This document shows, piece by piece, positions 11,758 to 44,104 of a stretch of DNA of 59,624 nucleotides (the first letter of the stretch is position 1; each line of letters opens with the position of its first letter). The notes beneath the pieces are model-generated. The model had not been told where the DNA came from, ran no database searches, and was given only the letters and a program-made list of their open reading frames with translations. Both the position numbers and the translations under genes were made by a program. This DNA comes from Tychonema sp. LEGE 06208 (lineage in GTDB: Bacteria; Cyanobacteriota; Cyanobacteriia; Cyanobacteriales; Microcoleaceae). The stretch is from positions 1-59,624 of the forward strand of contig NZ_JADEWT010000028.1 in NCBI RefSeq assembly GCF_015207505.1. The letters run 5' to 3'.

Positions 11758-12858
11758 ATGTCAGTTTTGGCAGCGATCGCAGTTTTAGGTATCTTGATTG
11801 TCGTTCACGAACTCGGCCACTTCTTGGCGGCGAGACTTCAACACATTCACGTCAACCGCTTCTCTATCGGTTTCGGCCCCATCCTGTGGAAGTACCAAGG
11901 CCCGGAAACAGAATACGCCATCCGCGCCTTTCCCCTGGGAGGTTTCGTGGGTTTCCCAGATGACGATCCAGAAAGCAATATTCCCCCCAATGACCCGAAT
12001 TTGCTGCGAAATCGCCCCGTGCTCGATCGGGCGATCGTGATTAGCGCCGGGGTGATTGCCAACTTGATTTTTGCTTACTTCCTGCTGGTGGTGCAATTGA
12101 CCACTGTCGGCGCAGCATCCATGAACTACCTACCGGGAGTTAAAGTCCCGGAAGTCGCAGCAGAAGTAAGTTCGGCCGCCTTCCAAGCGGGAATTCGATC
12201 GGGCGACATTGTTCTGTCCGTTGACGGCAAGGAATTGGGCGCTTCCCGCGAAGCAATCAAATCTCTAGTCTCAGCAATCCAAGATCATCCCAACCAACCC
12301 CTAGCGTTAGAAATTCAGCGTGCAGAACAAAAATTTGTCGTGACAGTCACTCCCGAAAAGTCCCCCGACGGTAAAGGCCGCATTGGCGTGCAGCTAACTT
12401 CTAACGGAACTGTCGTGCGGGATCGGGCGGGAATTCTAGATGCCTTTAGCATGGCGGCTACTGAATTTGAGCGGATTGTAGTGCTGACTGTGGAAGGTTT
12501 CGGGCAGTTAGTTACCAATTTCGGTCAAACCGCAAAACAGTTGTCCGGGCCCGTGGCAATTGTGGCGGCCGGTGCAGGGATTGCGCGATCGGATGCAGCG
12601 AATTTGTTTCAGTTTGCCGTGTTAATTAGCATCAATTTGGCTGTGATTAATATCTTGCCTTTACCTGCTTTGGATGGCGGTCAGCTAGCTTTTTTGTTAA
12701 TAGAAGGACTGCGGGGCAAACCTCTGCCGAACCGCATTCAGGAAAATGTGATGCAGACTGGTTTGATGCTGTTGCTGGGTTTGGGAATTTTCTTGATTGT
12801 TCGCGATACTGCTAATTTGGCAGGCATCGATTTTATGCGAAATCTTCGACAGCAGTAG
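11758..12858 (+). CDS. rseP: RseP-family site-2 intramembrane metalloprotease
   Basis: The 366-residue protein belongs to the M50B site-2 proteases. The first transmembrane helix contains HELGHFLAAR with zinc ligands H17 and H21 and catalytic E18; a later helix contains LPLPALDGGQL, the conserved LDG motif supplying the third ligand. One PDZ domain (about residues 130-205, AGIRSGDIVLSVDG) lies between them. Such proteases cleave membrane-bound anti-sigma factors or signal-peptide remnants. I start at ATG 11758 (MSVLAAIAVLG); an in-frame GTG at 11740 adds only six residues. The stop codon TAG (12856-12858) is also the first unit of a degenerate TTAGTCA-type repeat. It is divergent from another membrane metalloprotease gene. 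Confidence 0.92.
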   Translation: MSVLAAIAVLGILIVVHELGHFLAARLQHIHVNRFSIGFGPILWKYQGPETEYAIRAFPLGGFVGFPDDDPESNIPPNDPNLLRNRPVLDRAIVISAGVIANLIFAYFLLVVQLTTVGAASMNYLPGVKVPEVAAEVSSAAFQAGIRSGDIVLSVDGKELGASREAIKSLVSAIQDHPNQPLALEIQRAEQKFVVTVTPEKSPDGKGRIGVQLTSNGTVVRDRAGILDAFSMAATEFERIVVLTVEGFGQLVTNFGQTAKQLSGPVAIVAAGAGIARSDAANLFQFAVLISINLAVINILPLPALDGGQLAFLLIEGLRGKPLPNRIQENVMQTGLMLLLGLGIFLIVRDTANLAGIDFMRNLRQQ

Positions 12859-12912
12859 TCATTGGTCGTCAGTCATCAATCATTAGTCAGCAGTCATTAG
12901 TCATCACAACGC
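12856..12912. repeat. Degenerate TTAGTCA-type heptanucleotide array starting at the rseP stop codon
   Basis: From the rseP TAG onward the sequence is built from variants of TAGTCAT, CAGTCAT, CAATCAT and CAGCAGTCATTAGTCATC. It ends near 12912 before the Uma2 gene. Confidence 0.75.
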
Positions 12913-12963
12913 TGATGACTGTTGAATATTATAAAATCACCAGTAAATTAGGGGAAAACAGCA

Positions 12964-13701
12964 ATGATTACACAACTGCAATCTCCCGACCAATCTCAGA
13001 TTATCTACCCAGATGATAACGGCGAACCAATGTCTGACAATACCGAACAGTTTAGATTGATCGTGTGGATTAAAGAAAATTTAGAACTGTTATTTGCGGG
13101 CGTGGTTGATGTTTTTGTAGCGGGAAACTTACTGTGGTATCCAGTAGAAGGAAATAACAAAATTTCTCAAGCGCCAGATGTGATGGTAGCCTTCGGAAGA
13201 CCGAAAGGTTATCGAGGCTCCTACCAGCAGTGGAACGAAGATAATATTGTCCCGCAAGTCGCCTTTGAAATTTGGTCGCCGGGAAATCGCCTGAGTCCGA
13301 TGCTGCAAAAACTGAGATTTTACGAACAATACGGCGTAGAAGAATATTATTTGTACGATCCAGCAAATCTGGATTTAACTATATGGGAGCGTCGAGAGGA
13401 ACGATTAGAACCAATCGAAGAAGTGAACGGCTGGGTAAGTCCCAGAATGGGAGTGCGGTTTCAGCTATCAGAAACTGAACTACAAATATTCAGGCCTGAT
13501 GGCACACCGTTTGTGAGTTTTGTGGAACTCGCTCAACTTCGAGATCAAGCAGAATCAAGGGCCGAACAAGAACGGCAAAGGGCCGAACAAGAACGGCAAA
13601 GGGCCGAACAAGCAGAAACTATGCTGGAACAAGAACGATCGCGCTCGCAAGCTTTAGAAGCAAGACTCCGAGACATGGGAATCGACCTCAGCCAGTTGTA
13701 A
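12964..13701 (+). CDS. Uma2-family (DUF820) PD-(D/E)XK endonuclease-like protein
   Basis: The 245-residue protein has the Uma2 fold of cyanobacteria: QAPDVMVAFGRP with D72, PQVAFEIWSP with E102, and the downstream YGVEEYYLYDP segment. These are the PD-(D/E)XK acidic positions. The C-terminus is an added coiled coil with a near-perfect nine-residue repeat AEQERQRAE encoded by repeated DNA at 13561-13610, so its length may vary between strains. Uma2 proteins are expanded in filamentous cyanobacteria, and a nuclease role is predicted but unproven in this lineage. It is paralogous to the protein at 16350-16988 (shared SQAPD, RPKG and EDNI..P motifs). Confidence 0.85.
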   Translation: MITQLQSPDQSQIIYPDDNGEPMSDNTEQFRLIVWIKENLELLFAGVVDVFVAGNLLWYPVEGNNKISQAPDVMVAFGRPKGYRGSYQQWNEDNIVPQVAFEIWSPGNRLSPMLQKLRFYEQYGVEEYYLYDPANLDLTIWERREERLEPIEEVNGWVSPRMGVRFQLSETELQIFRPDGTPFVSFVELAQLRDQAESRAEQERQRAEQERQRAEQAETMLEQERSRSQALEARLRDMGIDLSQL

Positions 13702-13793
13702 ATGACTAATATTAACTTCGATCCATTGACCGCAATCAGTAAGATTCGTAGTGCGTCCTAGTGTCCGCACTACAAACAGTTTTGATATAACAA

Positions 13794-13894
13794 CAACTAA
13801 CAACTAACAACTAACAACTAACAACTAACAACTAACAACTAACAACTAACAACTAACAACTAACAACTAACAAATAACAAATAACAAATAACAA
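13794..13894. repeat. Heptanucleotide array (CAACTAA)11 (CAAATAA)3 abutting the nth start codon
   Basis: Counting from 13794, eleven perfect CAACTAA units are followed by three CAAATAA units (13871-13891) and then CAA, directly joined to ATG at 13895. The array therefore fills the whole region where the nth ribosome-binding site should be. No purine-rich Shine-Dalgarno sequence is present. Confidence 0.95.
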
Positions 13895-14539
13895 ATGACT
13901 AAAAAGTTAAGTTTAAAACAACGATCGCTCGAAATTCTGATTCGCCTCAAACGCCTGTATCCAGAAGCTCCTTGCACTCTCAACTACGAAACTCCGGTGC
14001 AGTTGTTGGTGGCGACGATTCTCTCGGCTCAGTGTACGGATGAGCGAGTAAACCTGGTAACGCCCGCCTTGTTTGAGCGTTTCCCCGATGCGGAGGCTTT
14101 GGGAAATGCTGATTTAGATGAATTGGAGCGTCTGGTGCGATCGACTGGTTTTTACCGCAACAAGTCTAAAAATATTAAAGCTGCTTGTTGGGCGATCGTC
14201 AACAAATTCAACAATCAAGTGCCGCAGCAAATGGAACTGCTGCTAGAATTGCCCGGAGTTGCCCGCAAAACAGCTAATGTCGTTCTCGCTCACGCTTTTG
14301 GTATTCATAGGGGCGTGACAGTAGACACCCACGTCAAGCGTTTGAGTCAACGATTGGGATTGACCGAACATACCGATCCGACTCGGATCGAGCGGGATTT
14401 GATGCTATTGTTGCCGCAGCCGGATTGGGAAAATTGGTCGATTCGGTTAGTTTATCACGGTCGGGCAGTTTGTAATGCAAGAAAGCCGATTTGCAATATT
14501 TGCGAACTTGCAGATTTGTGCCCTTCTGCTAATAGTTAG
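13895..14539 (+). CDS. nth: Endonuclease III (base-excision DNA glycosylase/AP lyase)
   Basis: The 214-residue protein has all Nth signatures: the helix-hairpin-helix LPGVARKTANVVL with catalytic lysine K125, the catalytic aspartate D144 in TVDTHVKRL, and the C-terminal [4Fe-4S] ligands C-x6-C-x2-C-x5-C (CNARKPICNICELADLC). It removes oxidised pyrimidines and nicks the abasic site. Length matches the E. coli enzyme (211 residues). The start ATG directly follows a heptanucleotide array with no Shine-Dalgarno sequence, so translation initiation may depend on repeat number or an unstructured leader. It lies upstream of rpsN with a 146-base gap. Confidence 0.96.
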   Translation: MTKKLSLKQRSLEILIRLKRLYPEAPCTLNYETPVQLLVATILSAQCTDERVNLVTPALFERFPDAEALGNADLDELERLVRSTGFYRNKSKNIKAACWAIVNKFNNQVPQQMELLLELPGVARKTANVVLAHAFGIHRGVTVDTHVKRLSQRLGLTEHTDPTRIERDLMLLLPQPDWENWSIRLVYHGRAVCNARKPICNICELADLCPSANS

Positions 14540-14685
14540 ATGTTGCACTATTTTCAGGAACAAGCAAGATGCCTGTGGTTAAAAATATTGTCAACAAAAA
14601 AAGTAATTTAAATAAAAGCGATCCGAAATGACCAAAATATAGTAAAATAGTTGATCGTGATTTATCTAAGGATATAAACTGAGTT

Positions 14686-14988
14686 ATGGCTAAAAAGAGC
14701 ATGATCGAGCGCGAAAGAAAGCGCCAAGCACTCGTAGACAAGTACGCTGACAAGCGGGAAGACCTGAAAGAGCAGTTTGACCAAGCTGCGAATCAGATGG
14801 ACAAAATGGCGATTCACCGTCAACTGCAACAGCTACCCCGTGGCAGTTCGCGGACTCGCTTGCGGAACCGCTGCTGGGCAACAGGACGGCCCAGAGGTTA
14901 CTATCGCGACTTCGGACTGTCTCGCAACGTGATGCGAGAAATGGCTCACGAAGGTCTTTTGCCCGGTGTTGTGAAGTCTAGCTGGTAG
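14686..14988 (+). CDS. rpsN: 30S ribosomal protein S14
   Basis: The 100-residue protein begins [20 protein letters not shown] and contains [20 protein letters not shown], the hallmark of S14. It lacks the CxxC pairs of the zinc-binding short form, so it is the long C-minus type usual in cyanobacteria and plastids. A purine-rich AAGGATATAAA lies upstream of the ATG. As in most cyanobacteria, the gene is outside the main ribosomal protein operon. Confidence 0.97.
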
Positions 14989-14994
14989 CATAAA

Positions 14995-15276
14995 GAAGGA
15001 AGTTCGGCAACGGATTTCGTATTTCGTAACGGATTTAATGGATAGAAGAAAGAAGGGTTTAGTTATCGTCGCGAGAGAGGGAAGAAATAAGAAGGAATGA
15101 AGAAAAACTTATGAATAATCGGTAAGATTATATTTAGGGTTAATTTTTGTTTCAGACTTTCTTCCTTCTTCCTTCTTCCTTCTTCCTTCTTCCTTCTTCC
15201 TTCTTCCTTTTTCCTTCTTCTTTCTGACTGACATCCGTTACATCCGTTACAAAATCCGTTGCCGAACCTTCTTCCT
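14995..15276. repeat. Composite repeat: GTTCGGCAACGGAT arms, ACATCCGTT units and a CTTCCTT array
   Basis: GAAGTTCGGCAACGGATTT near 15000 faces AAATCCGTTGCCGAAC at about 15250-15266, forming an inverted pair. Between them are ATCCGTTAC repeats (15233-15255) and a (CTTCCTT)n heptanucleotide array at 15160-15221. The same modules, GTTCGGCAGCGGATT, GTAACGGAT and GGAAGA, recur at 36294-36440 and 46104-46440, so this is one dispersed family. Confidence 0.75.
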
Positions 15277-15606
15277 TCACTGGCCGCAGCATTTATCGAT
15301 GCCGAGACTTTCGAGTAACAAGTCGCTGACGGCATTGGCGATCGCAAATTCGCCGTAAAAGCTTTTAGAAAAATCATAGGCCTGCATTTCGGTGACGATC
15401 GCAATTACGAGGCTGCCCACGTCGTTTTCGCCTTCCATACGCTGGCGGACATAGATTTGGGCAGCTCTTTTAGCTATTTGCTGGTTGGCAGCTTCTGGGA
15501 TAAACTCGGAGTCTAGCCATGCGAGCAGCGTTTGTTGGAGCCATTGACCTTCTTGCTCGGGGTTTTGGGCGGGCGGTAAGGTAATAGGTTCGATGGTTTC
15601 AGACAT
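15277..15606 (-). CDS. Conserved cyanobacterial hypothetical protein
   Basis: The 109-residue soluble acidic protein starts MSETIEPITLPPAQNPEQEG and contains WLQQTLLAWLDSEFIPE and RAAQIYVRQRMEGENDVGSLV, followed by IANAVSDLLLESLG. It ends CCGQ. I do not recognise a characterised domain. The composition and length suggest a mostly helical protein found widely in cyanobacteria. It is divergent from aat with 64 bases between starts, so the two may share a control region. Coding potential is supported by a proper ATG, normal codon use and good amino acid composition. Confidence 0.6.
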   Translation of the reverse strand: MSETIEPITLPPAQNPEQEGQWLQQTLLAWLDSEFIPEAANQQIAKRAAQIYVRQRMEGENDVGSLVIAIVTEMQAYDFSKSFYGEFAIANAVSDLLLESLGIDKCCGQ

Positions 15607-15670
15607 AATTATTCCTAATTGCTAATGTTGACTTTGAAAAGTTAGCGGACAAATGACAACTGATAAATAT

Positions 15671-16249
15671 ATGCAATATGATATACCGTCAATTATACAG
15701 GGATACGCGCAAGGCTACTTCTTGATGGCAAATGACGGCGAGGAGAGTTTGGGGTGGTATTCGAGCCGTCAGCGGGCGCTGATACCGCTAGATGAAAGAT
15801 TTACCTATCCGCGATCGCTGGGCCGCGCTATAAATCAAAATCGGTTTTCAGTGGCTGTAAATCGCGATTTTGGGGCGGTGGTTGAGGGTTGTGCCGATCG
15901 CGAAACGACCTGGATTTCTAAGGAACTCAAGCAGATTTACTGGGCTTTGCATAAAGCCGGTTGGGCTTACAGCTTCGAGACTTGGTGCGGCGACGAATTG
16001 GCGGGTGGTATTCTGGGATTGTCGATCGGCGGTGCATTTATTGGCGAATCGATGTTTTACCGAATTTCCGAGGGTTCTAAGGTGGCGATGGTAAAGTTGG
16101 TGGAGAGATTGCGCGATCGATCTTATCTACTTTTTGACGCTCAAATGAACAATCCCCACTTGGAAAGATTCGGAGCATATACTGTCAACCAAAAACAGTA
16201 CAACACTCTTTTGCAAGCCGCTTTAAAACGCCGCTGTTCGCTCTTGTAA
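15671..16249 (+). CDS. aat: Leucyl/phenylalanyl-tRNA--protein transferase
   Basis: The 192-residue protein matches Aat throughout: [12 protein letters not shown] near the start, [45 protein letters not shown] in the core and [17 protein letters not shown] near the end. The enzyme adds Leu or Phe to N-terminal Arg or Lys, marking proteins for ClpS/ClpAP in the N-degron pathway. An ATG at 15653 would add six residues, but that segment (ATGACAACTGATAAAT) looks like repeat-derived DNA and homologues begin close to MQYDIPSII, so I prefer 15671. The protein is a little shorter than the E. coli form (234), as in other cyanobacteria. Confidence 0.93.
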
Positions 16250-16349
16250 ATATTCTTGTCAGGCAAATAGCACTGCCGCATTCTAACCCGATATACCTAC
16301 TTTAAAAAATAGTACAATCAAACATAGATACTTCTTGGAGGCAACCATA

Positions 16350-16988
16350 ATGCAAGTCACAACAGAAGAAATCATTTATCCATCCAGCGACGGTCAACCA
16401 ATGGCAGAAAGTACAATTCAATACAAATTAATTGTCACCATCAAAGAAGGTTGCGAGTCGCTGTTTCAAGACGACCCCAACGTGTTTGTCGCAGCAGATT
16501 TACTCTGGTATCCGGTTGAGAGAAGAAATGACATTTCTCAAGCACCAGATACAATGGTAATATTTGGTAGACCAAAAGGCGATCGCCGTTCCTACCTACA
16601 ATTTGGAGAAGATAATATCCCTCCCCAAGTCGTCTTTGAGATTCGCTCCCACAACGACAGCAATACAAAAATGCACAAAAAACTTTCATTTTACAATCGC
16701 TATGGAGTTGAGGAATATTACCTTTACGACCCCGAAATCAATGAGTTGGAAGGTTGGCAAAGAATTGAAGGAAGCTTAGAACCAATTGAACCGATGGAAG
16801 GATGGATAAGTCCGAGATTGGGAGTGCGGTTTGAGTTGCCAGAATCAGGGTTAGAAATTTATAAACCTGATGGAGAAAAGTTTCTTTCCCCTGCTGAAAT
16901 GAATGCAGAGCGACTACTAGAGCGAGAGCGTGCCGAACGTTTAGCCGCCAAACTCCGCGAATTGAACATCGACCCAGATAGCATCTAA
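16350..16988 (+). CDS. Uma2-family (DUF820) PD-(D/E)XK endonuclease-like protein
   Basis: The 212-residue protein contains QAPDTMVIFGRPKG with D67, PPQVVFEIRSH with E97 and YGVEEYYLYDPE, the conserved Uma2 core. It lacks the long repeated coiled-coil tail of its paralogue at 12964-13701, ending instead in a short RLLERERAERLAAKLRE helix. The start at 16350 is supported by GGAGG at 16337-16341; a TTG at 16335 would overlap this site and is rejected. Function is predicted nuclease, unproven. The two paralogues lie 3 kb apart with nth, rpsN and aat between. Confidence 0.85.
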   Translation: MQVTTEEIIYPSSDGQPMAESTIQYKLIVTIKEGCESLFQDDPNVFVAADLLWYPVERRNDISQAPDTMVIFGRPKGDRRSYLQFGEDNIPPQVVFEIRSHNDSNTKMHKKLSFYNRYGVEEYYLYDPEINELEGWQRIEGSLEPIEPMEGWISPRLGVRFELPESGLEIYKPDGEKFLSPAEMNAERLLERERAERLAAKLRELNIDPDSI

Positions 16989-17351
16989 GCCCAAACAACG
17001 AGTAGAAACCCGGTTTTTCAAACAAATCGGGTTGCTGCGGATTGCAGTTATTTATTCTTTTAGGATTTACGCATCAAGACCAAAGAAACCGGGTTTTTTG
17101 CGGTTTTGCTGACTGTAACAAAGTATTATCGTAAAAACCCGGTTTCTGACCGCCCGTGCGTAAGTCTTATTCTTTTAACGGCGAATCGGAAATTTGGTCG
17201 ATCGCCCCCAGCTCAAATTACATATACTACAATATATAATACAGAGATTGGAGCCAAAATGCTTGGAGCTCAAAAGAATCCTAATCGCGGCCCCATGAAT
17301 GTGCAAAAATACTGAAGCAAACATTACTAAACTCTGCACGGAGCAATTGCT
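16989..17351. other. Intergenic region upstream of leuS with AAACCCGG elements
   Basis: Within 363 bases there are a partial AGAAACCCGGTTTTT motif at about 17004, the full element at 17084-17147, and then the presumed leuS promoter. TATACTACAATATATAATAC near 17223 is AT-rich and could hold a -10 box. No RNA leader or T-box is recognisable. Confidence 0.45.
17084..17147. repeat. 64-bp inverted-repeat element (AGAAACCGGGTTTTT family)
   Basis: AGAAACCGGGTTTTT at 17084-17098 is the perfect reverse complement of AAAAACCCGGTTTCT at 17133-17147. A second copy with the same arms and exactly the same 64-bp length lies at 50719-50782; related copies are at 19916-19948, 41495-41562 and 51043-51103. Confidence 0.85.
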
Positions 17352-19910: not shown

Positions 19911-19915
19911 AGATG

Positions 19916-19948
19916 AGAAACCCGGCTTATCCAAAAAACCGGGTTTCT
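19916..19948 (+). terminator. Hairpin after leuS (AAACCCGG-type)
   Basis: AGAAACCCGG at 19916-19925 pairs perfectly with CCGGGTTTCT at 19939-19948, six bases after the leuS stop. It belongs to the dispersed AAACCCGG family and is well placed to act as a terminator, though no T tract follows. Confidence 0.55.
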
Positions 19949-19981
19949 GAGACTTGCAGTTCAGAAATAGCGAACAAAACA

Positions 19982-20866: not shown

Positions 20867-20985
20867 ATAAACCTCTTGATAAAGTAGAAAAAATATTGTA
20901 ATGATCTGCGTTTGTCTGTGTTGATCTGCCTTAGATCTGCGGTTTTCGTATTTATCAAAAACTTAGGCAATAACTATCATCAAGA

Positions 20986-21834: not shown

Positions 21835-22683
21835 ATGGTAGCGCAGTGGGAAAACTTTCTGCAAAACTTAGGAGAATGGCACGGTTCCTTCACTCAGCTA
21901 TCAACGCGGGGAGAGGTAATTAAAGATACTCCCAGCATTATTTCTCTCGAAGGACTCAACGACAACAAAACTGTGCGCTTGAAACTGCGGCGTTTCTCCC
22001 CAAATCCTAGCGGTGTCGGCGAACCAGAAGTCAGCGAACTTGTTCGAGAATATCAGAGTTTGGGACGAGATATCTTATTTTTTGAAAATGGAAATTTTTG
22101 TCAGGGTACTATTCAATTAGCGCCTTATTCTGAGTCTGGGGCCGAGTTTGGTTTTATCTACAACTATCGCAGGTTGCGCTTCGTTCAACTCTACAATATT
22201 GACGGCAATTTATCCAAACTTACCTTAATTCGCGAAAAACAGCAAGATAAAAATATCCCCGAACGTCCGCCTTTAACTGTTGATGCTTTGCTGGGAGAAT
22301 GGCAGGGCGAGGCCGTGACAATGTATCCAGATTATCGTCATCCTGATTCCTATTCTACCAATTTACAATTGCATTTGCAAAATGGCGATCGGCTAGTACA
22401 GAAAATCACTTTTGGCAATAATGCTAATGTTATCAGTTCTAGCGGCAGCATTGACGGTTCTGCGATTAATTTTAACGAAGGTTCAACGCCCGTGCAAGTT
22501 TTGCTGCTTCCCGATGGCGGTTCTTGCACTTGTCCGGTGAAAGTTGAATTCAGAAAACCTATCTTTTTTGAGGCCGGTTGGTTGGTAGAACCTGACTTGC
22601 GATTTCGGATGATTCGCAGTTACAATGACAAAGGTGAATGGGTAAGTTTGACTTTAGTTACTGAACGGAAAATTAGTCATTAG
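21835..22683 (+). CDS. DUF3598 family protein
   Basis: The 282-residue protein has the two-part layout of DUF3598: an N-terminal MVAQWENFLQNLGEWHGSF and a second similar module beginning TVDALLGEWQGEAVTMYPD, each with the L(G)EWxG motif of lipocalin-like (calycin) beta barrels. The family is found in cyanobacteria and plants and has no firm biochemical role. AAAGG lies 8 bases before the ATG at 21835. The last residues (KISH) and the TAG stop are encoded by TTAGTCA repeat units, so the original C-terminus may have been replaced or trimmed by the array. Confidence 0.8.
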   Translation: MVAQWENFLQNLGEWHGSFTQLSTRGEVIKDTPSIISLEGLNDNKTVRLKLRRFSPNPSGVGEPEVSELVREYQSLGRDILFFENGNFCQGTIQLAPYSESGAEFGFIYNYRRLRFVQLYNIDGNLSKLTLIREKQQDKNIPERPPLTVDALLGEWQGEAVTMYPDYRHPDSYSTNLQLHLQNGDRLVQKITFGNNANVISSSGSIDGSAINFNEGSTPVQVLLLPDGGSCTCPVKVEFRKPIFFEAGWLVEPDLRFRMIRSYNDKGEWVSLTLVTERKISH

Positions 22684-22777
22684 TCATTAGTCATTAGTCA
22701 TTAGTCATTAGTCATTAGTCATTAGTCATTAGTCATTAGTCATTAGTCATTAGTCATTAGTCAGTAGTCATTAGTTA
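22673..22777. repeat. TTAGTCA heptanucleotide array
   Basis: About thirteen near-perfect TTAGTCA units begin inside the last codons of the DUF3598 gene, which supplies its stop codon from the array. Shorter arrays of the same unit follow at about 22811-22840 and 23092-23161 and flank the duplicated block described next. Confidence 0.95.
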
Positions 22778-22828
22778 GTAGGGGCGGTGGATGGTGCGGG
22801 CCCGCCCTCTTAGTAGTCATTAGTCATT

Positions 22829-23093
22829 AGTCATTAGTTAGTAGGGGCGGGTTAATCGCGTAATCCTCGCATCCGGCACGCAATCTCCGAACAAAACCCG
22901 CCCCGCTTTACGACAAACGAAAGTTGATATAGCAGCGAATTTTATTCGCCGGACTTTGTTTCCTGGGTTTGCGATTGAATCACCGCACTCCAATCATCAT
23001 TGTTAACTGCAGCTTCCAGATGTTCGTGTCGTTCGCCGTCAATTTTGGCTGCTGTTTCTAACTCTTTGGTAAGAGTAGAATCTGCCATTGCTT
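22829..23093. repeat. Direct repeat, copy 1 (of 23150-23414)
   Basis: The sequence at 22829-23093 appears identical to 23150-23414, an offset of 321 bases. Copy 2 is the genuine 3' end of the GIY-YIG gene and its downstream region; copy 1 breaks off at GCCATTGCTT and runs into TTAGTCA units. The near-perfect identity implies a recent duplication. Confidence 0.93.
22942..23093 (-). pseudogene. Duplicated 3' fragment of the GIY-YIG gene
   Basis: This is the last 50 or so codons of the gene at 23263-23940, on the same strand and in identical sequence, lacking the start and catalytic domain. Upstream of it lie TTAGTCA units that contain stops in all frames, so it should not be translated. Confidence 0.9.
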
Positions 23094-23149
23094 AGTCATT
23101 AGTCATTAGTCATTAGTCATTAGTCATTAGTCAGTAGTTAGTAGTCAGT

Positions 23150-23414
23150 AGTCATTAGTTAGTAGGGGCGGGTTAATCGCGTAATCCTCGCATCCGGCAC
23201 GCAATCTCCGAACAAAACCCGCCCCGCTTTACGACAAACGAAAGTTGATATAGCAGCGAATTTTATTCGCCGGACTTTGTTTCCTGGGTTTGCGATTGAA
23301 TCACCGCACTCCAATCATCATTGTTAACTGCAGCTTCCAGATGTTCGTGTCGTTCGCCGTCAATTTTGGCTGCTGTTTCTAACTCTTTGGTAAGAGTAGA
23401 ATCTGCCATTGCTT
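23150..23414. repeat. Direct repeat, copy 2 (of 22829-23093)
   Basis: Matches copy 1 at a 321-base offset. It includes the last codons of the GIY-YIG gene and about 100 bases beyond its stop. Confidence 0.93.
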
Positions 23415-34124: not shown

Positions 34125-34147
34125 ACCAAATCTGCGTTAATTTATGC

Positions 34148-34396: not shown

Positions 34397-34519
34397 AGAT
34401 TCACTTTGTCCGCAATGACATATTTTTTGGTAGCAAGCACTTCAATCATTGTTGAGTTTGAATCACAACAGAGGACTTATGTTCTCACTAATAACTTATA
34501 TTTTGCTCCAAACCCAAAA

Positions 34520-35338: not shown

Positions 35339-35517
35339 AAACTTGCGAATTAACCTAAAATAATAAGCTTGTGAGGCTCTCAAACCAGATCGCCTCCCAG
35401 ATTCCCACACAATCGTAAATTTTTAGTCGAAAATAGGTAAAGTGTAGTGCACGCGACCCCAAAATTTTAAGGGGTTTCCAAACATCCTACAAGGTTATAT
35501 AAGGAGAAAACGTATCC

Positions 35518-36210: not shown

Positions 36211-36246
36211 TTAATTGGGAAATAAGGAATGGGAAAAAACTTGAAA

Positions 36247-36274
36247 ATTAAAAATGATATCCCTCATTTTTAAT
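36247..36274 (+). terminator. AT-rich hairpin after ado
   Basis: ATTAAAAATGA at 36247-36257 pairs perfectly with TCATTTTTAAT at 36264-36274 across a 6-base loop. It is weak for a terminator because no T-run follows, but it could protect the ado mRNA end or partially attenuate read-through into aar. Confidence 0.5.
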
Positions 36275-36293
36275 GGAAAAATTGATATTTTTC

Positions 36294-36440
36294 TTCTTTC
36301 TTCTTCCTTCTTCCTTCTTCCTAATGACGGCAGAACTGATGGGTAATCGGTAATCAATGATGGGTAATCGGGAATTCTATCCGTTACATCCGTTAAATCC
36401 GCTACACAATCGGCTGCCGAACTTCCTTCTTCTTCAATCT
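36294..36440. repeat. CTTCCTT array with ATCCGTTACATCCG and CTGCCGAACTTCC modules
   Basis: A CTTCCTT heptamer array at about 36297-36322, GGTAATCGGTAATC-type units and TCCGTTACATCCGTTAAATC at 36380, then GCTGCCGAACTTCCTTCTTC. This is the same module set as 14995-15276 and 46104-46440, here lying inside the alkane operon between ado and aar. Confidence 0.75.
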
Positions 36441-36459
36441 TCCTTCATTTGACAACTTA

Positions 36460-37482: not shown

Positions 37483-37641
37483 TGTGATTTGTTGCGGTTA
37501 TTGGTTATTGAGGAAAGTTTTTCTGAGAATAACCAGTAACTTTTTTTGATGCAGCTAACAGTTCATTAACAACGGATATATAGCAGTTAGAGCGAAAGAT
37601 GAGGTGTTGACCGATCGATCTCTCATCGAGAGTGAGAACTG
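37483..37641. other. Gap after aar
   Basis: The gap contains a 72-bp inverted-repeat element at 37576-37647 (see next entry) and otherwise no recognisable feature. Together with the terB-like pseudogene it makes an 862-base stretch without an intact gene. Confidence 0.4.
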
Positions 37642-37647
37642 CTATAT
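37576..37647. repeat. Inverted-repeat hairpin element TATAGCAGTT
   Basis: ATATAGCAGTT at 37578-37588 pairs with AACTGCTATAT at 37637-37647; GATGAG and CTCATC form an inner stem. It overlaps the 3' end of the TerB-like pseudogene, whose stop lies in the right arm, so it may have inserted there. Confidence 0.65.
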
Positions 37648-38110
37648 GTCACCTCGGAAGTTCTCCCCGCAGTTTTTGAGAGTCATGACTGCGATCGTGT
37701 TTTTGCTAAGTTCATCAGGAATGTCCAAAGCTTCGGACAGTTGACGCAAAAAATCCTGTTCTTGAGCGGTGAAAATTCCATCTACCAAAACCAAATCTGT
37801 AGCGCAAAAGCTGTTTCTCGAAGCTGAGGATTTAAGGCATTTTTAGCAGCAGCAAATACCTCAGCCAGACTGTACTGGCTGCTCAATTTCAGGACTTTCT
37901 TAAAAAGTTTTTGGAAGTGTTGGCTAGACTAATATCTAAACAAGCGAATGTGATTGGCGGCGAGAGTTTGTCTTTCTGCTTCAGATATTTTACCGTCGGC
38001 GGCAACAGCTAATACAGACAGAGCTGTTAAAGCTTCCGAAGCGGTGAGTTCGATCGCACTGGTATCGCTTTTTGCACTTTGCAACCATTCAACAGAATTT
38101 AGTTTTTTGT
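37642..38110 (-). pseudogene. TerB-family (tellurite resistance-like) pseudogene
   Basis: On the minus strand one frame reads KLNSVEWLQSAKSDT, then TASEALTALSVLAVAADGKIS and RQTLAANHIRLFRY, hits a TAG near 37930, and continues in the same frame as QHFQKLFKKVLKLSSQYS and KNALNPQLRETAFA. After a frame change near 37800 it resumes as ATDLVLVDGIFTAQEQDFLR, LSEALDIPDELSK and AVMTLKNCGE. AVAADGxxSEAE and ATDLVxVDGxxTxxEQxFL are the paired metal-binding-like motifs of TerB proteins (about 150 residues). One nonsense codon, one frameshift and no in-frame start near the 5' end indicate a dead gene. No tellurite genes are near. Confidence 0.8.
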
Positions 38111-38344
38111 TGCTGTGGGGGGCATAGGAGCGTGGGGAGTGGCGCCGGTAAACTCAGGTATCTAACAAAAACAGTGTAGCAAAAAACCAGGCTGGAGCCT
38201 CTGGCTTTTAACTCTTGTCAACGAGCCAAACATAATTAAAAATTAAAAACTTCCCAAGAACACTCTTTTTCAGCAACGCCTGACAGGGTAGGATCGGGAA
38301 ACAGTCGATCGACTAAACCTTAAAACCCTATAGAAATTATCAGC

Positions 38345-39325
38345 GTGCCAAACTCAGACCGCAAACCACTACTCCTAGATTTTGAAAAGCCGCTGGCCGA
38401 ACTCGAAGCCCGAATTCACCAGATTCGGCAACTCGCCGAAGAAAACAGCGTCGATGTCACCGACGAAATTCGCAAACTCGAAGCTCGTTCCACCCAACTG
38501 CGGCAAGAAATTTTCAGCAGCTTGTCCCCCATGCAGCGGCTGCAACTGGCCCGTCACCCGCGCCGCCCCAGTACCCTCGATTACATTCAGGCAATTAGCG
38601 ACGAGTGGATCGAGCTGCACGGCGATCGGCGCGGCGGAGACGACCCGGCCCTAGTCGGCGGAATTGCCCGTATAGACGGGTGTCCTACAGTCATCATCGG
38701 CCATCAAAAAGGGCGCGACACCAAAGACAATATCGCCCGCAACTTCGGCATGGCGGCGCCGGGGGGCTACCGCAAAGCCTTGCGGTTGATGGAACACGCC
38801 GATCGCTTCTCCATGCCAATTTTCACCTTTATCGACACTCCCGGAGCTTGGGCGGGCTTAGAAGCTGAACAGCTAGGACAGGGAGAGGCGATCGCCTGCA
38901 ACCTCCGAGAAATGTTTCGCCTCGACGTTCCGATTATATGTACCGTCATCGGCGAAGGAGGTTCCGGCGGTGCATTAGGTATCGGTGTTGGCGAGCGGCT
39001 GTTGATGATGGAACATTCTGTTTATACCGTCGCCACCCCGGAAGCTTGCGCCGCCATCCTCTGGAAAGACTCTGGCAAAGCCAACTTAGCAGCAGAAGCC
39101 CTAAAAATCACTTCCTGGGACTTAAAAAACCTCGGCGTTCTCGATCAGATAGTACCCGAACCGATTGGTGGCGCTCACTCGAATCCGCTAAAAGCTGCGT
39201 CAGCCCTCAAACAAGCTTTGTTGGAAAACTTAGCAGAACTGACACAGCTTACTGGCAAGCAGCGGCGGGATCTCAGGTATCAAAAGTTTCGTGATATCGG
39301 TGTATTCAATGAAATTGCTGCTTGA
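38345..39325 (+). CDS. accA: Acetyl-CoA carboxylase carboxyltransferase subunit alpha
   Basis: The 326-residue protein matches Acc[21 protein letters not shown] at the start, [24 protein letters not shown], the oxyanion regions [14 protein letters not shown] and [18 protein letters not shown], and [16 protein letters not shown]. With AccD it transfers the carboxyl from biotin to acetyl-CoA, making malonyl-CoA for fatty acid synthesis, the source of acyl-ACP for aar. The start is GTG; no in-frame ATG precedes it before a stop. Its place after ado-aar is conserved in cyanobacteria. A strong hairpin follows its stop. Confidence 0.96.
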
Positions 39326-39369
39326 GTCGATCGATTCAGATTTATCAGACACAAACAATAATTCTTGTG

Positions 39370-39395
39370 GAGCAGGCTCTTTGAGCCTGCTCTTT
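39370..39395 (+). terminator. Strong hairpin after accA
   Basis: GAGCAGGCTC at 39370-39379 pairs perfectly with GAGCCTGCTC at 39383-39392 around a TTT loop, 45 bases after the accA stop and followed by TTTACAGGCTTTT. Stem strength and position fit an intrinsic terminator, or a dispersed hairpin recruited as one. Confidence 0.7.
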
Positions 39396-39459
39396 ACAGG
39401 CTTTTAGAAGATTCGTCTATTAGTGATGAGTTGAAAATTTCTTAACTTCCAGCGAGTAA

Positions 39460-39523
39460 TATCATCTCCGGTCGATTATCACCATAACAAAAATGGATGG
39501 CGCGTGCGGACTGAAGTCCGCAC
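39460..39523. repeat. Dispersed element with GTGCGGACT/AGTCCGCAC hairpin
   Basis: GTGCGGACT at 39504-39512 and AGTCCGCAC at 39515-39523 form a 9-bp stem with a 2-base loop. The preceding ATCATCTCCGGTCGAT segment is related to 5100-5160. The element lies between accA and the SDR gene; 39524-39741 shows no further feature. Confidence 0.7.
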
Positions 39524-39741
39524 TACGAACGGGAGTGCTCTGGATCTATCCACCGGACACGACATCAAAACTCACTACGATCTGCAAATCTGTCAGCAGT
39601 GTTATAATTTTTCAGGTGACACCGGCTTAACAGTTCTTAATGTCGATCTCATAATTAACTGTTATCACCCGCAGTCGAATTTGCCGAAGAAGGCTGTAAC
39701 GCTCGAAAGAGAGTTGCCGAGGGAAAGTATCAGGAAATTTA

Positions 39742-40467
39742 ATGAACGATCGAACAACAAAGCAGGCTCTGATTACCGGAGCCAGCAGCGGTATTGGCAA
39801 AGCGACGGCCCTGGCGTTCGCCGCCGAGGGCATCAATCTGGCCTTAGTTAGCCGAGAGTCAGAAAAATTAGAAGCCGTTGCCGCAGCGGCCAGAGAAGTC
39901 GGAGTGAAAGCAGAAGCTTATCCCTTAGACTTGGCAAAAATTGAACAAGTGCAAAGCGGCATCAGCGCGATCGCATCTCAATTCGGGCCCGTAGATATCC
40001 TGGTCAACAGCGCTGGCATGGGCTACACCGGCTCCTTGACGGAAACCTCCCTAGCCCAGTGGCAGCAAGTTTTAGACCTCAATCTGACTAGCGTTTGGCA
40101 GTGCATTGTCGGAGTTTTGCCGTCCATGCGCGATCGCGGTTCGGGAATCATCATCAACGTTTCCTCGATCGCCGGCAGCCAAACTTTTCCCAACTGGGGG
40201 CCCTACTGCGTCAGCAAATTCGGTCTCATGGCTTTGTCCAAGACTTTAGCCGCCGAAGAACGGGATCGGGGAATTCGCGTCACAGTCGTATGTCCGGGTT
40301 CTGTCAACACTCCCATGTGGGACACGCAGAGCGTGCAAGCCAACTTCGATCGCACTGCCATGCTAACCCCTGAAATCGTCGCGCAATCAATTCTGCACGC
40401 AGTTCAGTTGCCGGCAAGTGCAGTAATTGAAGAAATCACGATCATGTCCAACGCAGGAGTTTTGTGA
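39742..40467 (+). CDS. Short-chain dehydrogenase/reductase of the alkane locus
   Basis: The 241-residue SDR has the cofactor motif TGASSGIG, the NSAG motif after VDILVN, the catalytic serine in INVSSIAGS and YCVSK with the Tyr-Lys pair. The basic residue after ALVSR points to NADP(H). It lies in the conserved ado-aar-accA-SDR-folE order. A role in lipid or aldehyde metabolism is suggested by context only. The name FabG is not used because the family is broad. The ATG follows a GAGGGAAAGTATCAGG stretch that may carry the ribosome site. Confidence 0.92.
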   Translation: MNDRTTKQALITGASSGIGKATALAFAAEGINLALVSRESEKLEAVAAAAREVGVKAEAYPLDLAKIEQVQSGISAIASQFGPVDILVNSAGMGYTGSLTETSLAQWQQVLDLNLTSVWQCIVGVLPSMRDRGSGIIINVSSIAGSQTFPNWGPYCVSKFGLMALSKTLAAEERDRGIRVTVVCPGSVNTPMWDTQSVQANFDRTAMLTPEIVAQSILHAVQLPASAVIEEITIMSNAGVL

Positions 40468-40534
40468 ACTTGAGATTTTAGACTGCTGAATTGCGATCGA
40501 ATTCAACAATCTTTGAATCCATAGCTCGATCCCA

Positions 40535-40646
40535 ATCCAAAATCGATAGCTCGATCGCAATCGACAATCAAAAATCGAAAATCGATAGCTTTATCACAAT
40601 TGAAAATCGATAGCTCGATCGCAATCGACAATCAAAAATCGAAAAT
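40535..40646. repeat. Tandem repeat, period about 64, unit ATAGCTCGATCGCAATCGAC
   Basis: The segment around 40545-40582 recurs at about 40609-40646, offset 64 bases, each copy ATAGCTCGATCGCAATCGAC then AATCAAAAATCGAAAAT. A third, partial copy begins near 40521. It fills the region between the SDR gene and the folE ATG; a longer folE frame from 40600 runs through it and is rejected. Confidence 0.85.
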
Positions 40647-40671
40647 AGCTCGTTCCTCACACGAAATTATT

Positions 40672-41406
40672 ATGACAATTGCATCGAACAACGGCTCAAA
40701 TAACTCGAACTCTATCTCAACAGACAGCATGAAACCTTCAGAAACCGCAGACTACAACGCCCCGCGCATCACGACTAGACCCGATCGCAATTCTTCCAAC
40801 GGTCAAGAGTCTAACATACCCGTATCCTCAGAAGTAGGTATGGATGAAATGATGGAGTCCGTCCGGACGATGCTGCTGGGAATAGGAGAAAACCCCGAAC
40901 GGGAAGGATTGCTCAAAACCCCCAAACGGGTAGCAGAAGCAATGCAGTTTCTCACCAGCGGCTACAGCCAATCCCTCGAAGAACTCCTCAACGGCGCTAT
41001 CTTTGACGAAGGGCATAACGAAATGGTACTGGTGCGAGACATCAGCGTATTCAGTATGTGCGAACACCATATGCTGCCATTTATGGGCCGAGTTCACATC
41101 GCTTACATTCCCAACCAAAAAGTAGTGGGACTGAGCAAATTAGCCAGAATTGCCGAGATGTACAGCCGTCGCTTGCAGGTGCAGGAACGTTTGACGCGCC
41201 AAATTGCCGAAGCAGTTCAGACAATATTGGAACCGCAGGGAGTCGCTGTAGTAATGGAAGCCAGCCATATGTGCATGACAATGCGGGGCGTACAAAAACC
41301 CGGTGCTTGGACGGTTACGAGTGCCATGTTGGGCGTGTTTCAAGATGAACAAAAAACTCGCGAAGAATTCTTGAATTTGATCCGCCACCAACCGGCATTC
41401 TTTTAG
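40672..41406 (+). CDS. folE: GTP cyclohydrolase I
   Basis: The 244-residue enzyme has a variable Ser/Asn-rich N-terminus (about 60 residues) and the conserved core: [20 protein letters not shown], the zinc site CEHHMLPF with Cys and His ligands, [20 protein letters not shown], and [10 protein letters not shown] with the third zinc ligand Cys. It converts GTP to dihydroneopterin triphosphate, first step of folate and pterin synthesis. The stop TAG (41404-41406) is itself the first unit of a TTAGTCA array. Its linkage to alkane genes is conserved in many cyanobacteria without a clear functional link. I choose ATG 40672 because the upstream frame is repeat DNA. Confidence 0.95.
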
Positions 41407-41452
41407 TCATTAGTCATCATCAGTCATTAGTCATCAGTCATTAGTCATTAGC
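41404..41452. repeat. TTAGTCA/ATCAGTC heptanucleotide array starting at the folE stop codon
   Basis: TTTTAGTCATTAGTCATCAT and following units of TCAGTCAT and TTAGTCA. The first TAG is the folE stop. Confidence 0.9.
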
Positions 41453-41494
41453 CAATCACTTTTTTCCTGGTGGCTGTAATCAAACATGGGGTCC

Positions 41495-41562
41495 AGAAAT
41501 CGGTTTTTTTTACGATATACTTCGTTACGCACCGCAAATTGGGTAAAAAAAAACCCGGTTTC
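41495..41562. repeat. AAACCCGG-family inverted-repeat element
   Basis: AGAAATCGGTTTTTTT at 41495-41510 opposes AAAAACCCGGTTTCT at 41548-41562. It is a diverged member of the family at 17084 and 50719. Confidence 0.65.
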
Positions 41563-41662
41563 TTTGTCGGAGTGCGTCCAAGACCGATCTAAAATCTCAA
41601 ATCAGATGACGATCGCCCGTTCTGCCAATAAAATAGATTGGTGACTCATGGCTTTTGACTAA

Positions 41663-43087
41663 ATGAATCCTATTAAATTCGGAACCGATGGCTGGCGCGG
41701 CATTATAGCCGACGATTTTACCTTCGATCGCGTAGCATTAGTAGCTCCCCTAGCAGCACAAGTTCTCGCACAAACCAGTGGCAATAATGCCAGCAGCGGT
41801 ACCGTAATTGTCGGTTACGACCGCCGTTTTTTGGCGGAAGATTTTGCCAAAACAGCGGCTGAGGCAGTCCAAAACGCCGGATTTGACGTGCTGCTGAGCG
41901 AATCCTACGCCCCCACTCCGGCTTTCAGTTTAGCAGCCAAACAATTAAATGCTTTAGGTGCGATCGTCCTGACAGCCAGCCACAATCCCGGATCATATTT
42001 AGGGTTAAAAGTCAAGGGGGGATTTGGAGGTTCAGTTTCGCCCGAAGTGACGCAACAGATAGAAGCAAAACTCGAAAATCCGGCCGCACTTTCAGCAACC
42101 CCCGGAAAATTGGAGAATTTCAATCCTTGGCCGGCTTACTGCAAAACCTTGCGGGAAATGGTGGATATTGAGGCGATTAAAGATGCGATCGCATCCGGCA
42201 AAATTACAGTATTTGTAGATGCAATGCACGGCGCTGCAGCAGGAGGATTATCTCAAATATTAGAAGAAACAGTGCAAGAAATCAACAGCGATCGCGATCC
42301 GCTGTTTGGCGGTGGCGCACCAGAACCATTACCGCGCTACCTGTCGAAGTTGTTCCGCATGATGCGTACCCACCAGCGCCAAAATTTCGGTTTGTCAATC
42401 GGATTTGTATTTGATGGAGATAGCGATCGAATTGCAGCCGTTGACTCTAGCGGCAACTTTCTCAGTTCGCAAATCCTAGTTCCCATATTAATCGAACACC
42501 TAGCTTCACGGCGCGGGTTAACCGGAGAAGTCATCAAAACCGTCAGCGGTTCCGACATCATTCCCAAAATTGCCCAACTTTACGGCTTACCATTATTTGA
42601 AACGCCGATCGGTTACAAGTATATAGCCGATCGAATGTTAACCACCAAAGTCCTAGTAGGCGGCGAAGAATCTGGAGGAATCGGCTACGGAACCCACATA
42701 CCCGAAAGAGACGCCTTGCTATCAGCCCTGTACTTATTAGAAGCAGTCGTCAAATCCGGGGAAGACCTAAGCCAAATTTACAGCAGACTGCAAACAGAAA
42801 CAGAGTTTACCTCAGCTTATGACAGAATCGACCTGCACCTAGCAAACATGGAAGAAAGATCGCGCTTGCTGGATTTGCTGCAAAACCAACCATTAACAGA
42901 AATCGCCAGCAAAACAGTAGTAGACTGCAACAAAGTAGACGGATACAAATTCCGTTTAACCGACGGAAGCTGGCTGTTAATTCGGTTTAGCGGCACAGAA
43001 CCGGTGTTGAGGCTTTATTCCGAAGCAGCCACATTGAAAGAAGTGATGCAAAACTTAAATTGGGCGAAAGCTTGGGCGCAGAATTAA
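41663..43087 (+). CDS. Phosphoglucomutase/phosphomannomutase family protein
   Basis: The 474-residue alpha-D-phosphohexomutase begins MNPIKFGTDGWRGIIADDF. The phosphoserine loop is TASHNPG with S106; the metal loop is DGDSDR; the sugar loop is GGEESGGIGYG; the phosphate-binding loop is RFSGTEPVLRLYSE. All four active-site parts are complete. Which sugar phosphate it isomerises (glucose, mannose or glucosamine) cannot be fixed, though the sequence resembles the cyanobacterial archaeal-type phosphoglucomutase/phosphomannomutase. It may supply sugar nucleotides for glycogen or polysaccharides. Confidence 0.93.
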   Translation: MNPIKFGTDGWRGIIADDFTFDRVALVAPLAAQVLAQTSGNNASSGTVIVGYDRRFLAEDFAKTAAEAVQNAGFDVLLSESYAPTPAFSLAAKQLNALGAIVLTASHNPGSYLGLKVKGGFGGSVSPEVTQQIEAKLENPAALSATPGKLENFNPWPAYCKTLREMVDIEAIKDAIASGKITVFVDAMHGAAAGGLSQILEETVQEINSDRDPLFGGGAPEPLPRYLSKLFRMMRTHQRQNFGLSIGFVFDGDSDRIAAVDSSGNFLSSQILVPILIEHLASRRGLTGEVIKTVSGSDIIPKIAQLYGLPLFETPIGYKYIADRMLTTKVLVGGEESGGIGYGTHIPERDALLSALYLLEAVVKSGEDLSQIYSRLQTETEFTSAYDRIDLHLANMEERSRLLDLLQNQPLTEIASKTVVDCNKVDGYKFRLTDGSWLLIRFSGTEPVLRLYSEAATLKEVMQNLNWAKAWAQN

Positions 43088-43107
43088 TCGGATGAAAACA
43101 ACCGCAG

Positions 43108-43395
43108 ATGAACGCAAATGAAAGCGGATAGATTGATATGAAACCTCTCCTTCTCTGCGTTCTCTGCGGCCTCTGCGGTAAAAAAAAATCCCCAAAATTG
43201 GGAACTCTCTCTTCCTTCGCATCTTCGCGGTTCGTAAAAAATCCATGATGAACGCAAATGAAAGCGGATAGATTGATATGAAACCTCTCCTTCTCTGCGT
43301 TCTCTGCGGTCTCTGCGGTAAAAAAAATCACAAAATTGGGAACTTTCTCTTCTTCTCTCTTCCTTCGCATCTTCGCGGTTCGTGAAAAATCCATC
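43108..43395. repeat. 140-bp tandem duplication
   Basis: ATGAACGCAAATGAAAGCGG at 43108 recurs at 43248; the two copies of about 140 bp run side by side, each with CTTCTCTGCGTTCTCTGCGG and CTTCGCATCTTCGCGGTTCG. The copies differ by small insertions. The core is the reverse complement of the GCGAAGACGC motif at 10605. It fills the gap before rdgB; 43396-43415 is left for the ribosome site. Confidence 0.9.
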
Positions 43396-43415
43396 CGTAA
43401 ATTTTAACAGAAATA

Positions 43416-44006
43416 ATGACTAATAATAAATTGCTAGTTGTGGCTACGGGCAATCCGGGTAAACTTAAGGAAATGCAGCTTTACCTTCAGGATTTGGGGT
43501 GGGAATTGCGCCTGAAACCGGAAGAATTGGAAATTGAGGAAACTGGGGAAACATTTATTGCTAATGCTTGTTTGAAAGCTTCTGAAATAGCCAAAGCTAC
43601 AGGCGAATGGTCGATCGCCGATGATTCTGGTTTAATGGTAGATGCACTCGACGGTAAACCTGGGATTTATTCGGCGCGCTACGGTTCAAGCGATGCTGAC
43701 AGGATATCTCGGCTGCTGAAAGAATTGGGAAACGAAGCAAACCGGGAAGCACAATTTGTTTGCGCGATCGCGATCGCCCGTCCCGACGGTACAATTGCCC
43801 TGCAAGTAGAAGGAATTTGCCCAGGTGAAATCCTGCACAGTCCTCGCGGTACCGGAGGTTTCGGATATGACCCGATTTTCTACGTACCCGCACAGCAGCA
43901 GACTTTTGCCGAAATGACAACGGATATCAAGCGATCGCACTCCCACCGCGGCAAAGCATTCGAGGCCCTAATACCACAAATGGAGTCATTAGTCATTAGT
44001 CATTAG
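43416..44006 (+). CDS. rdgB: dITP/XTP pyrophosphatase (non-canonical purine NTP hydrolase)
   Basis: The 196-residue protein has the Ham1/RdgB signatures: LLVVATGNPGKLKEM at the N-terminus, ETFIANACLKA, SIADDSGLMVDALDG, GIYSARYG and GTGGFGYDPIFY. It removes dITP and XTP from the nucleotide pool. After RGKAFEALIPQM the frame runs into TTAGTCA repeats, encoding ESLVISH and a TAG supplied by the array, so the C-terminus differs from relatives only in the last residues. Function should be intact. Confidence 0.95.
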   Translation: MTNNKLLVVATGNPGKLKEMQLYLQDLGWELRLKPEELEIEETGETFIANACLKASEIAKATGEWSIADDSGLMVDALDGKPGIYSARYGSSDADRISRLLKELGNEANREAQFVCAIAIARPDGTIALQVEGICPGEILHSPRGTGGFGYDPIFYVPAQQQTFAEMTTDIKRSHSHRGKAFEALIPQMESLVISH

Positions 44007-44104
44007 TTATTAGTCATTAGTTATTGGTTATTTGTGATTAGTACCAATTATCCAATGCCCAATGCTATAATGCCCAATGCCCAATGCCCAATGCCCCATT
44101 CCCC
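43983..44104. repeat. Two heptanucleotide arrays: TTAGTCA/TTAGTTA then CCCAATG
   Basis: TTAGTCATTAGTCATTAGTT units (43986-44020) overlap the end of rdgB, then TGCCCAA units (44055-44103). The arrays fill the gap between convergent rdgB and glnB. Confidence 0.9.

Follow-up and report, generated by a model that had tools for sequence, protein, structure and literature searches.

Arrays of the heptanucleotide TTAGTCA begin at the stop codons of protein-coding genes far more often than expected by chance in the cyanobacterium Tychonema sp. LEGE 06208. The starting point was a contig of 59,624 nucleotides (nt) (NZ_JADEWT010000028.1, analysed at its full length and called the window below), in which four genes (rseP, a DUF3598 gene, folE and rdgB) run into such arrays at their 3' ends. 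The anchoring is confirmed and real beyond the window. The arrays probably grow at gene ends, where they are tolerated via a stop codon of their own, rather than being inserted there as boundary signals.

Array starts compared with random placement

The genome is a draft of 6.55 Mb in 232 contigs, the window being one of them. Together with 80 further stretches (L031-L110), the sample amounts to 1,522,540 bases; it is not random, as 14 of the 80 stretches come from 11 contigs on which the repeat had been detected beforehand. The 1071 genes were called with our own dicodon model and do not represent a curated annotation. Among the 42 genes with an anchored array, 41 have at least 100 codons and 37 score at least 20.

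The sample contains 125 TTAGTCA arrays, none of which lies inside a gene. For 78 of them the gene on the 5' side is encoded on the same strand, and 42 of these 78 begin at -23 to +3 nt of its stop codon. The array overlaps the gene end by 1-21 nt in 31 cases and by 23 nt in one (the largest overlap observed, stop included), and it begins 0-3 nt behind the stop in the remaining 10. The null model covers the 113 arrays with genes on both sides (12 arrays without were left out). In TTAGTCA sense, 39 of the 113 begin at -21 to +3 nt of a stop, while placement within the own spacer in random orientation gives 6.0 (maximum 17 in 5000). In TGACTAA sense, none of the 113 adjoins a stop, against 6.0 expected with the own-spacer null. 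When the window is excluded, 37 of 107 both-flanked arrays are found at -21 to +3 nt. Random placement within the own spacer then gives 5.4 when the orientation is randomised as well and 5.7 when it is kept (maximum 15 in each case), and placement in any spacer gives 4.5 (maximum 13). The comparison of array starts with shuffled positions had been suggested in an earlier note on the window, and over the sampled 1.52 of 6.55 Mb the anchoring survived it. It is repeated in a genome from another family (G046, 400 kb), where 13 of the 16 arrays with a same-strand 5' gene begin at -23 to +3 nt (null mean 2.8, maximum 9) and one of the eight arrays in TGACTAA sense is 9 nt away from a stop.

The coincidence extends to the individual unit. 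In 29 arrays the overlap with the stop is 3-23 nt; 18 of them contribute their first TAG as the stop, where a random frame of entry gives 4.1. In the wider range of -21 to +20 nt, the 5' edge of TTAGTCA arrays is found at 51 of 78 same-strand stops and at 14 of 43 opposite-strand starts. Irrespective of ORF (open reading frame) orientation, the 5' edge is the one closer to its neighbouring ORF in 97 of 113 arrays.

The genome has 3137 matches to the repeat taken as a 21-mer. The repeat is present in 28 of 28 genomes of the same genus and has at least one match in 12 of 31 genera. One genome of the same family (G030) has two TTAGTCA matches against 146 for a backwards control pattern, so that a different heptamer may dominate there.

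Gene ends in the window and in relatives

The genes and arrays are listed in Table 1. The window holds 42 copies of TTAGTCA (6.1 expected), and a strict array caller finds six TTAGTCA arrays, three at a stop (starting at 22672, 41403 and 43984) and three elsewhere. The rseP array is degenerate and is not counted by this caller.

Table 1. Genes and heptanucleotide arrays of the window (TRF, Tandem Repeats Finder)
Feature	Positions	Strand	Remarks
rseP-like M50 protease gene	11758..12858	+	Stop TAG 12856-12858; Peptidase_M50 and PDZ (Pfam)
Degenerate TTAGTCA-type array	12856..12906	+	First unit G-TAGTCA, from rseP stop; TRF 69% match
AACAACT array	13792..13894	-	G+T-rich strand is minus; ends at start codon of gene at 13895
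HhH-GPD (endonuclease III-like) gene	13895..14539	+	Starts ATG ACT AAA; mirror-image anchor
DUF3598/BFA1-like gene	21835..22683	+	Ends K-I-S-H-TAG, stop 22681-22683; Pfam
TTAGTCA array	22672..22777	+	About 15 units in all; overlaps DUF3598 stop 22681-22683
TTAGTCA array	22814..22840	+	Spacer behind DUF3598; belongs to 321-bp direct repeat
TTAGTCA array	23092..23161	+	Spacer behind DUF3598; in second 321-bp repeat copy
folE (GTP cyclohydrolase I)	40729..41406	+	Stop TAG 41404-41406; Pfam
TTAGTCA array	41403..41454	+	First unit 41403-41409, its TAG being the folE stop
rdgB (Ham1 family)	43416..44006	+	Ends E-S-L-V-I-S-H-TAG, stop 44004-44006; Pfam
TTAGTCA/TTAGTTA array	43984..44042	+	Covers last 20 coding nt of rdgB and stop
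CCAATGC array	44052..44103	-	Behind rdgB array
TTAGTCA array	57109..57168	-	Divergent spacer; 3' edge 4 nt from start (57104) of minus-strand DUF1232 gene

According to the earlier note, each of the four stops is the TAG of a TTAGTCA unit that opens an array. All four are TAG codons in TTAGTCA-type sequence, and at folE the stop is exactly the first TAG. The other three depart from this description: the rseP array is degenerate and opens with G-TAGTCA, the DUF3598 array opens one unit earlier, and the rdgB stop is located in a TTAGTTA variant unit (44003-44009) that follows two full units. Units translated ahead of the stop, also noted earlier, are confirmed for DUF3598 (KISH; one unit, 22673-22679) and rdgB (ESLVISH; about 2.5 units). 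Among the arrays elsewhere, that at 23092..23161 lies 3 nt from the start of a called minus-strand ORF of 48 codons (22942-23088), which is possibly no gene. The region 22812-23414 is a 321-bp tandem duplication (98%), which holds TTAGTCA units and a GGGGCGGG...CCCGCCCC palindrome and lies next to the window's longest TTAGTCA array. Repeats of nine bases (ATGTAACGG / ATCCGTTAC) are located at 46136-46411 and 36379-36406, the former inside purine-rich heptamer blocks.

The four gene ends were compared with those of relatives (leaving out L222 at DUF3598, which is masked, and G027 at folE, where only a paralogue was found). In the readable relatives, the orthologues end within about two codons of the window genes. 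The sequence and length of the units are not conserved.

For DUF3598, 10 of 24 readable relatives encode TTAGTCAT right before the stop, and the longest run is about three units (L201, L207). The coding end of the gene, AATTAGTCATTAG, already amounts to about 1.5 units, and the KISH end is also found in relatives without a long array. We propose that KISH is an older coding end, which may have acted as a seed for the array. For rdgB, relatives commonly end in LVK-TAA, IVK-TAA or a form of NP(N)-stop. G007 ends in TCATTAGTCAAG-TAA and G016 in two units (LVISS), and an array is present in G021 and in the window (LVISH). The earlier note had considered selection for insertion or expansion exactly at gene ends; insertion is unsupported at these two ends, whose history can be traced, given that the first translated units of both genes resemble coding ends of relatives that lack a long array.

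For folE, the stop is TAG in 25 of 27 relatives and is followed by TCA in 19 of 27; 10 of these 19 continue with TTAGTCA-type and eight with TTGACAG-type units (TAG-TCA and units read by eye). For rseP, TAG-TCA is found in 13 of 26 relatives, with several different units behind. The folE end was also followed over 80 named loci, of which 78 were used and two were too short; the nearest records are from Tychonema sp. LEGE 07203 (96%) and Microcoleus sp. LEGE 07076 (94%). Within 80 nt of the stop, period 7 is found in 16 of the 20 loci with at least 88% identity, the cut that we use to define the genus, and in 14 of 58 other cyanobacteria (one Microcoleus vaginatus record is among these 58). In the 78 loci, periods 4-6, 8 and 10-12 were found in none and period 9 in one. 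This test concerns a single gene, picked as the window pointed to it.

The HhH-GPD gene provides a mirror case, the array upstream of it ending at its start codon. In relatives, TGACTAA-sense arrays at the same place run into ATGACTAAA; the window has AACAACT instead. This gene and rdgB (starting at 13895 and 43416) both start with ATGACTAA, which holds the reverse complement of a TTAGTCA unit.

Distribution and polarity of heptanucleotide arrays

TTAGTCA is one of many units. Period 7 dominates the tandem repeats of the sample (435 TRF rows; the next commonest period is 14, with 93 rows). Heptanucleotide STRR (short tandemly repeated repetitive) sequences are known in cyanobacteria, as the earlier note pointed out, and the arrays here are likewise of period 7, intergenic and present at many sites. 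We take them to be of the cyanobacterial STRR or long simple sequence repeat (LSSR) kind, which they resemble as short tandem heptanucleotide repeats that are abundant and intergenic. Long simple sequence repeats were reportedly treated by Mrazek in 2007.

Heptamer-periodic DNA makes up 7.3% of spacer bases and 0.13% of coding bases (spacers below 60 or above 1500 nt excluded). Arrays are carried by 22 of 168 spacers between two starts, 140 of 512 tandem spacers and 48 of 147 convergent spacers.

The arrays have a pronounced polarity. With each of the 429 arrays read along its G+T-rich strand, a range of -21 to +20 nt around a stop takes in the 5' edge in 107 of 217 cases, and the same range around a start does so in 61 of 191. 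Such closeness is rare for the 3' edge, with 1 of 148 at a start and 6 of 238 at a stop; the unit ACTGATG accounts for three of the six. Taken together, 168 of the 175 near edges have the G+T-rich strand running away from the gene. The pool comprises 68 units and is dominated by about ten of them; the rule is shown for the pool and not for each single unit. Along a spacer, neighbouring arrays follow the order G+T, then C+A, in 75 pairs and the reverse order in five. In G046 (28 arrays), the array is near the stop in 14 of 19 cases with a stop on the 5' side, and 1 of 15 3' edges is near a stop. An exception to outward polarity is the array at 57109..57168, which runs towards its gene and is the only TTAGTCA array with its 3' edge at a start. 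The CCAATGC array, with its G+T-rich strand being minus, runs away from the stop of a minus-strand gene (44111-44449).

Ordinary base skew was considered as a source of this polarity and rejected: spacers have 52.5% T+G, which gives about 55% G+T-rich 7-mers, against 168 of 175. The outward polarity is weakly mirrored in array-free spacer DNA. In two spacers (L041, about 7905-8100, and L065, about 6171-6400), arrays of G+T type and of C+A type enclose a common longer core (GGTAATTAGAACGAACAACTAATAATTAACAAATAACCACT), a hint that spacers may be copied as a whole.

Units with a stop codon overlap the stop of the gene in 37 of 140 cases, units without one in 9 of 77. The three-frame stops of TTAGTCA, to which the earlier note drew attention, are the right clue to this overlap. 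They do not explain nearness, since stop-free units cluster near stops, too (counts are given below).

Origin of the arrays, rival explanations and known systems

With a probability of roughly 0.6, we favour the explanation that heptanucleotide repeats grow by slippage, are kept in spacers and are held flush at coding boundaries by purifying selection. The seed would consist of about 1 to 1.5 units, present by chance in the last codons of a gene and its stop. It would expand by 7-bp steps; a step inside the gene would be a frameshift and would be lost. When the unit bears a TAG, a copy added at the stop would leave the protein unchanged, and an array starting a few codons upstream would supply a new stop within 21 nt. 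With such copies being tolerated, the front of the array would halt at the stop or a few codons inside the gene. Read in reverse, the unit carries an ATG (TAATGAC) and could adjoin start codons. Later, the unit may turn over (TTAGTCA, TTGACAG, TTGGTTA, GGAAGAA) with the anchor kept. This reading is preferred because relatives show partial units at DUF3598 and rdgB and a fixed folE stop with a changing unit. We infer that the arrays grew rather than shrank and that replication slippage was responsible; selection rather than targeting would set the front, and nothing would have to recognise the arrays.

Several points weigh against this explanation. It accounts for the exact coincidence with the stop and not for the nearness of stop-free units, which are near a stop (-21 to +20 nt, or overlapping) in 35 of 77 cases, compared with 74 of 140 for stop-bearing units. 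The TGACTAA sense also contains stop codons (TGA and TAA), and equal tolerance at gene ends would be expected, yet not one of the 113 arrays adjoins a stop in this sense. The polarity is left unaccounted for by growth and selection: stops are carried in both senses, the spacer skew is too weak and RNA structure is not raised. In five relatives, a TGACTAA-sense array spans the whole spacer upstream of the HhH-GPD gene, from stop to start; this sense can therefore touch a stop, which counts against a strict rule. Among the loci of relatives (17 arrays at the four focal genes left out), one of two same-strand arrays is at a stop, where the null mean is 3.3, and of the 21 arrays in TGACTAA sense, five are at -1 of a stop. 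Seventeen of the 21 adjoin a start (-7 or -8) and seem to be one spacer seen in several orthologous copies; the flanks of relatives are too few and too orthologous for an independent test of anchoring. A pattern search for array edges in G046, G010 and G001 misses arrays that start with TAG, and its loci were not used. Counting all units, 11 of 429 arrays lie inside genes. Array-free stops are followed by TCA as TAG-TCA in 7 of 200 cases against 3.6 expected. This excess is only about twofold, so seeding alone may not suffice, and a general excess of TAG-TCA at stops was rejected as the seeding source. Finally, a partial unit in a relative could be a shrunken array as well as a seed, and growth and shrinkage are not formally separated.

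Alternatively, the arrays could be functional elements selected at the gene edge, as G+U-rich trailers or A+C-rich leaders in the sense strand that are bound by a protein or shape mRNA decay. We regard this as unlikely. The pooled one-way polarity and its weak echo in array-free spacers fit such a role, as does period 7 behind the folE stop of distant cyanobacteria with different units, and a regulator has been proposed for TAACTGA repeats in the excerpts of MacGregor 2015 (PMC4679880) used here. The four genes of the window, however, have no common function, and neither sequence nor length of the units is conserved. RNA behind array-bearing stops is no more structured: in the first 180 nt, the median folding free energy (dG) per nt is -0.312 for 102 array-bearing ends and -0.318 for 100 of 665 controls (computed without shuffles), and the longest perfect stem is 7 with and 8 without array. 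Hairpin or terminator arms are therefore unsupported within this distance. A role specific to leaders is weakened as well: contrary to its prediction, start-side heptamer DNA is almost absent from divergent spacers. A universal 3' boundary, as envisaged in the earlier note, is not supported in view of these RNA data, of the arrays that abut start codons and of the 116 of 1030 gene ends that have heptamer-periodic DNA at the stop.

A purely mechanical origin of the anchoring seems quite improbable. Any ORF that enters a TTAGTCA array must end within 21 nt, and anchoring would be automatic. This is true of arrays overlapping a gene end, and the same was said for TAACTGA in the excerpts of MacGregor 2015 (PMC4679880). 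It does not predict the 10 of 78 arrays located 0-3 nt behind a stop, the excess of stops at the first TAG (18 of 29 against 4.1), the bias in orientation, the clustering of stop-free units or the agreement of the window gene ends with those of readable orthologues to within about two codons.

A descent from mobile elements, with the arrays as their ends or cargo and insertion at gene ends in one orientation, is very unlikely. The 321-bp repeat of the window carries TTAGTCA units, the spacers of L041 and L065 have a common core, and spacers tend to contain G+T-type together with C+A-type arrays (Mantel-Haenszel odds ratio over length classes, 7.7). A common inverted-repeat element is not supported: when the outermost units of a spacer's two flanks are compared, they are alike in 8 of 76 cases against 6.2 when shuffled (P 0.26), and likeness at chance level speaks against shared terminal inverted repeats. 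A further argument against insertion is provided by relatives that have partial units but no long array, and the sections of Rehm 2015 (PMC4692102) consulted report generally no link to mobile elements for its repeats.

Directional synthesis as the source of the polarity is hardly to be expected. In this reading, the 3' strand at breaks or gaps in spacers would be extended by G+T-rich 7-mers in the manner of telomeres, and from both gene edges the G+T-rich strand would run outward; if it were true, the position and direction of arrays would record repair events bounded by coding regions, and an enzyme rather than a seed would set the 7-nt step.

Two known systems are similar to the arrays that we attribute to slippage and selection. 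The sections of Rehm 2015 (PMC4692102) consulted describe G-rich heptamers (GGGAATC and GGGGA(T/C)T) in spacers of Xanthomonas and Nostoc, which are closer to the 5' neighbouring ORF in any orientation (stop-codon overlaps included) and which are on the coding strand behind stops and on the non-coding strand before starts. TTAGTCA arrays share the location in spacers and the closeness to the 5' ORF (97 of 113). They differ in that the unit has a single G, and the quadruplex described is thus not expected from the unit sequence. Here, polarity was followed over a pool of 68 units, and anchoring was tested against a null and compared in relatives. The excerpts of MacGregor 2015 (PMC4679880) concern TAACTGA repeats of Beggiatoaceae, some cyanobacteria and Bacteroidetes, with 13 sets overlapping the stop of the upstream gene, explained by stops in three frames. 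These limit the overlap with gene ends in both systems (here 23 nt at most), but TTAGTCA cannot be obtained by rotating TAACTGA or its reverse complement TCAGTTA, and most TAACTGA sets are just upstream of starts, whereas near-gene TTAGTCA arrays are mostly at stops.

The earlier note took stop-codon anchoring to be undescribed. Overlap with stops is already in print in both papers; for TTAGTCA, a description with a null test was not found. Beyond these two papers, no description of stop-codon anchoring was found for STRR or LSSR sequences among our hits, which do not include the older STRR papers. In a search that did not cover most subscription journals, we also found no report of relatives with partial units at corresponding gene ends, of unit turnover at a fixed stop or of polarity over many units. 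The anchoring and polarity of TTAGTCA arrays are a strong variant of an already known kind.

Heptanucleotide repeats are abundant in several bacterial groups, and the cited parts of Rehm 2015 and MacGregor 2015 offer no settled mechanism. Growth under purifying selection gives a testable account of the exact ending at stops: a repeat that carries its own stop would be invisible to the protein. That distant cyanobacteria have period 7 behind folE, but in units of another sequence, suggests that the place outlasts the unit. The strand-polarity rule published for G-rich repeats in 2015 is extended here to 68 units pooled from one genome, and the outward course of the G+T-rich strand, whatever the orientation of the gene, is a sharp constraint on models of how such repeats originate.

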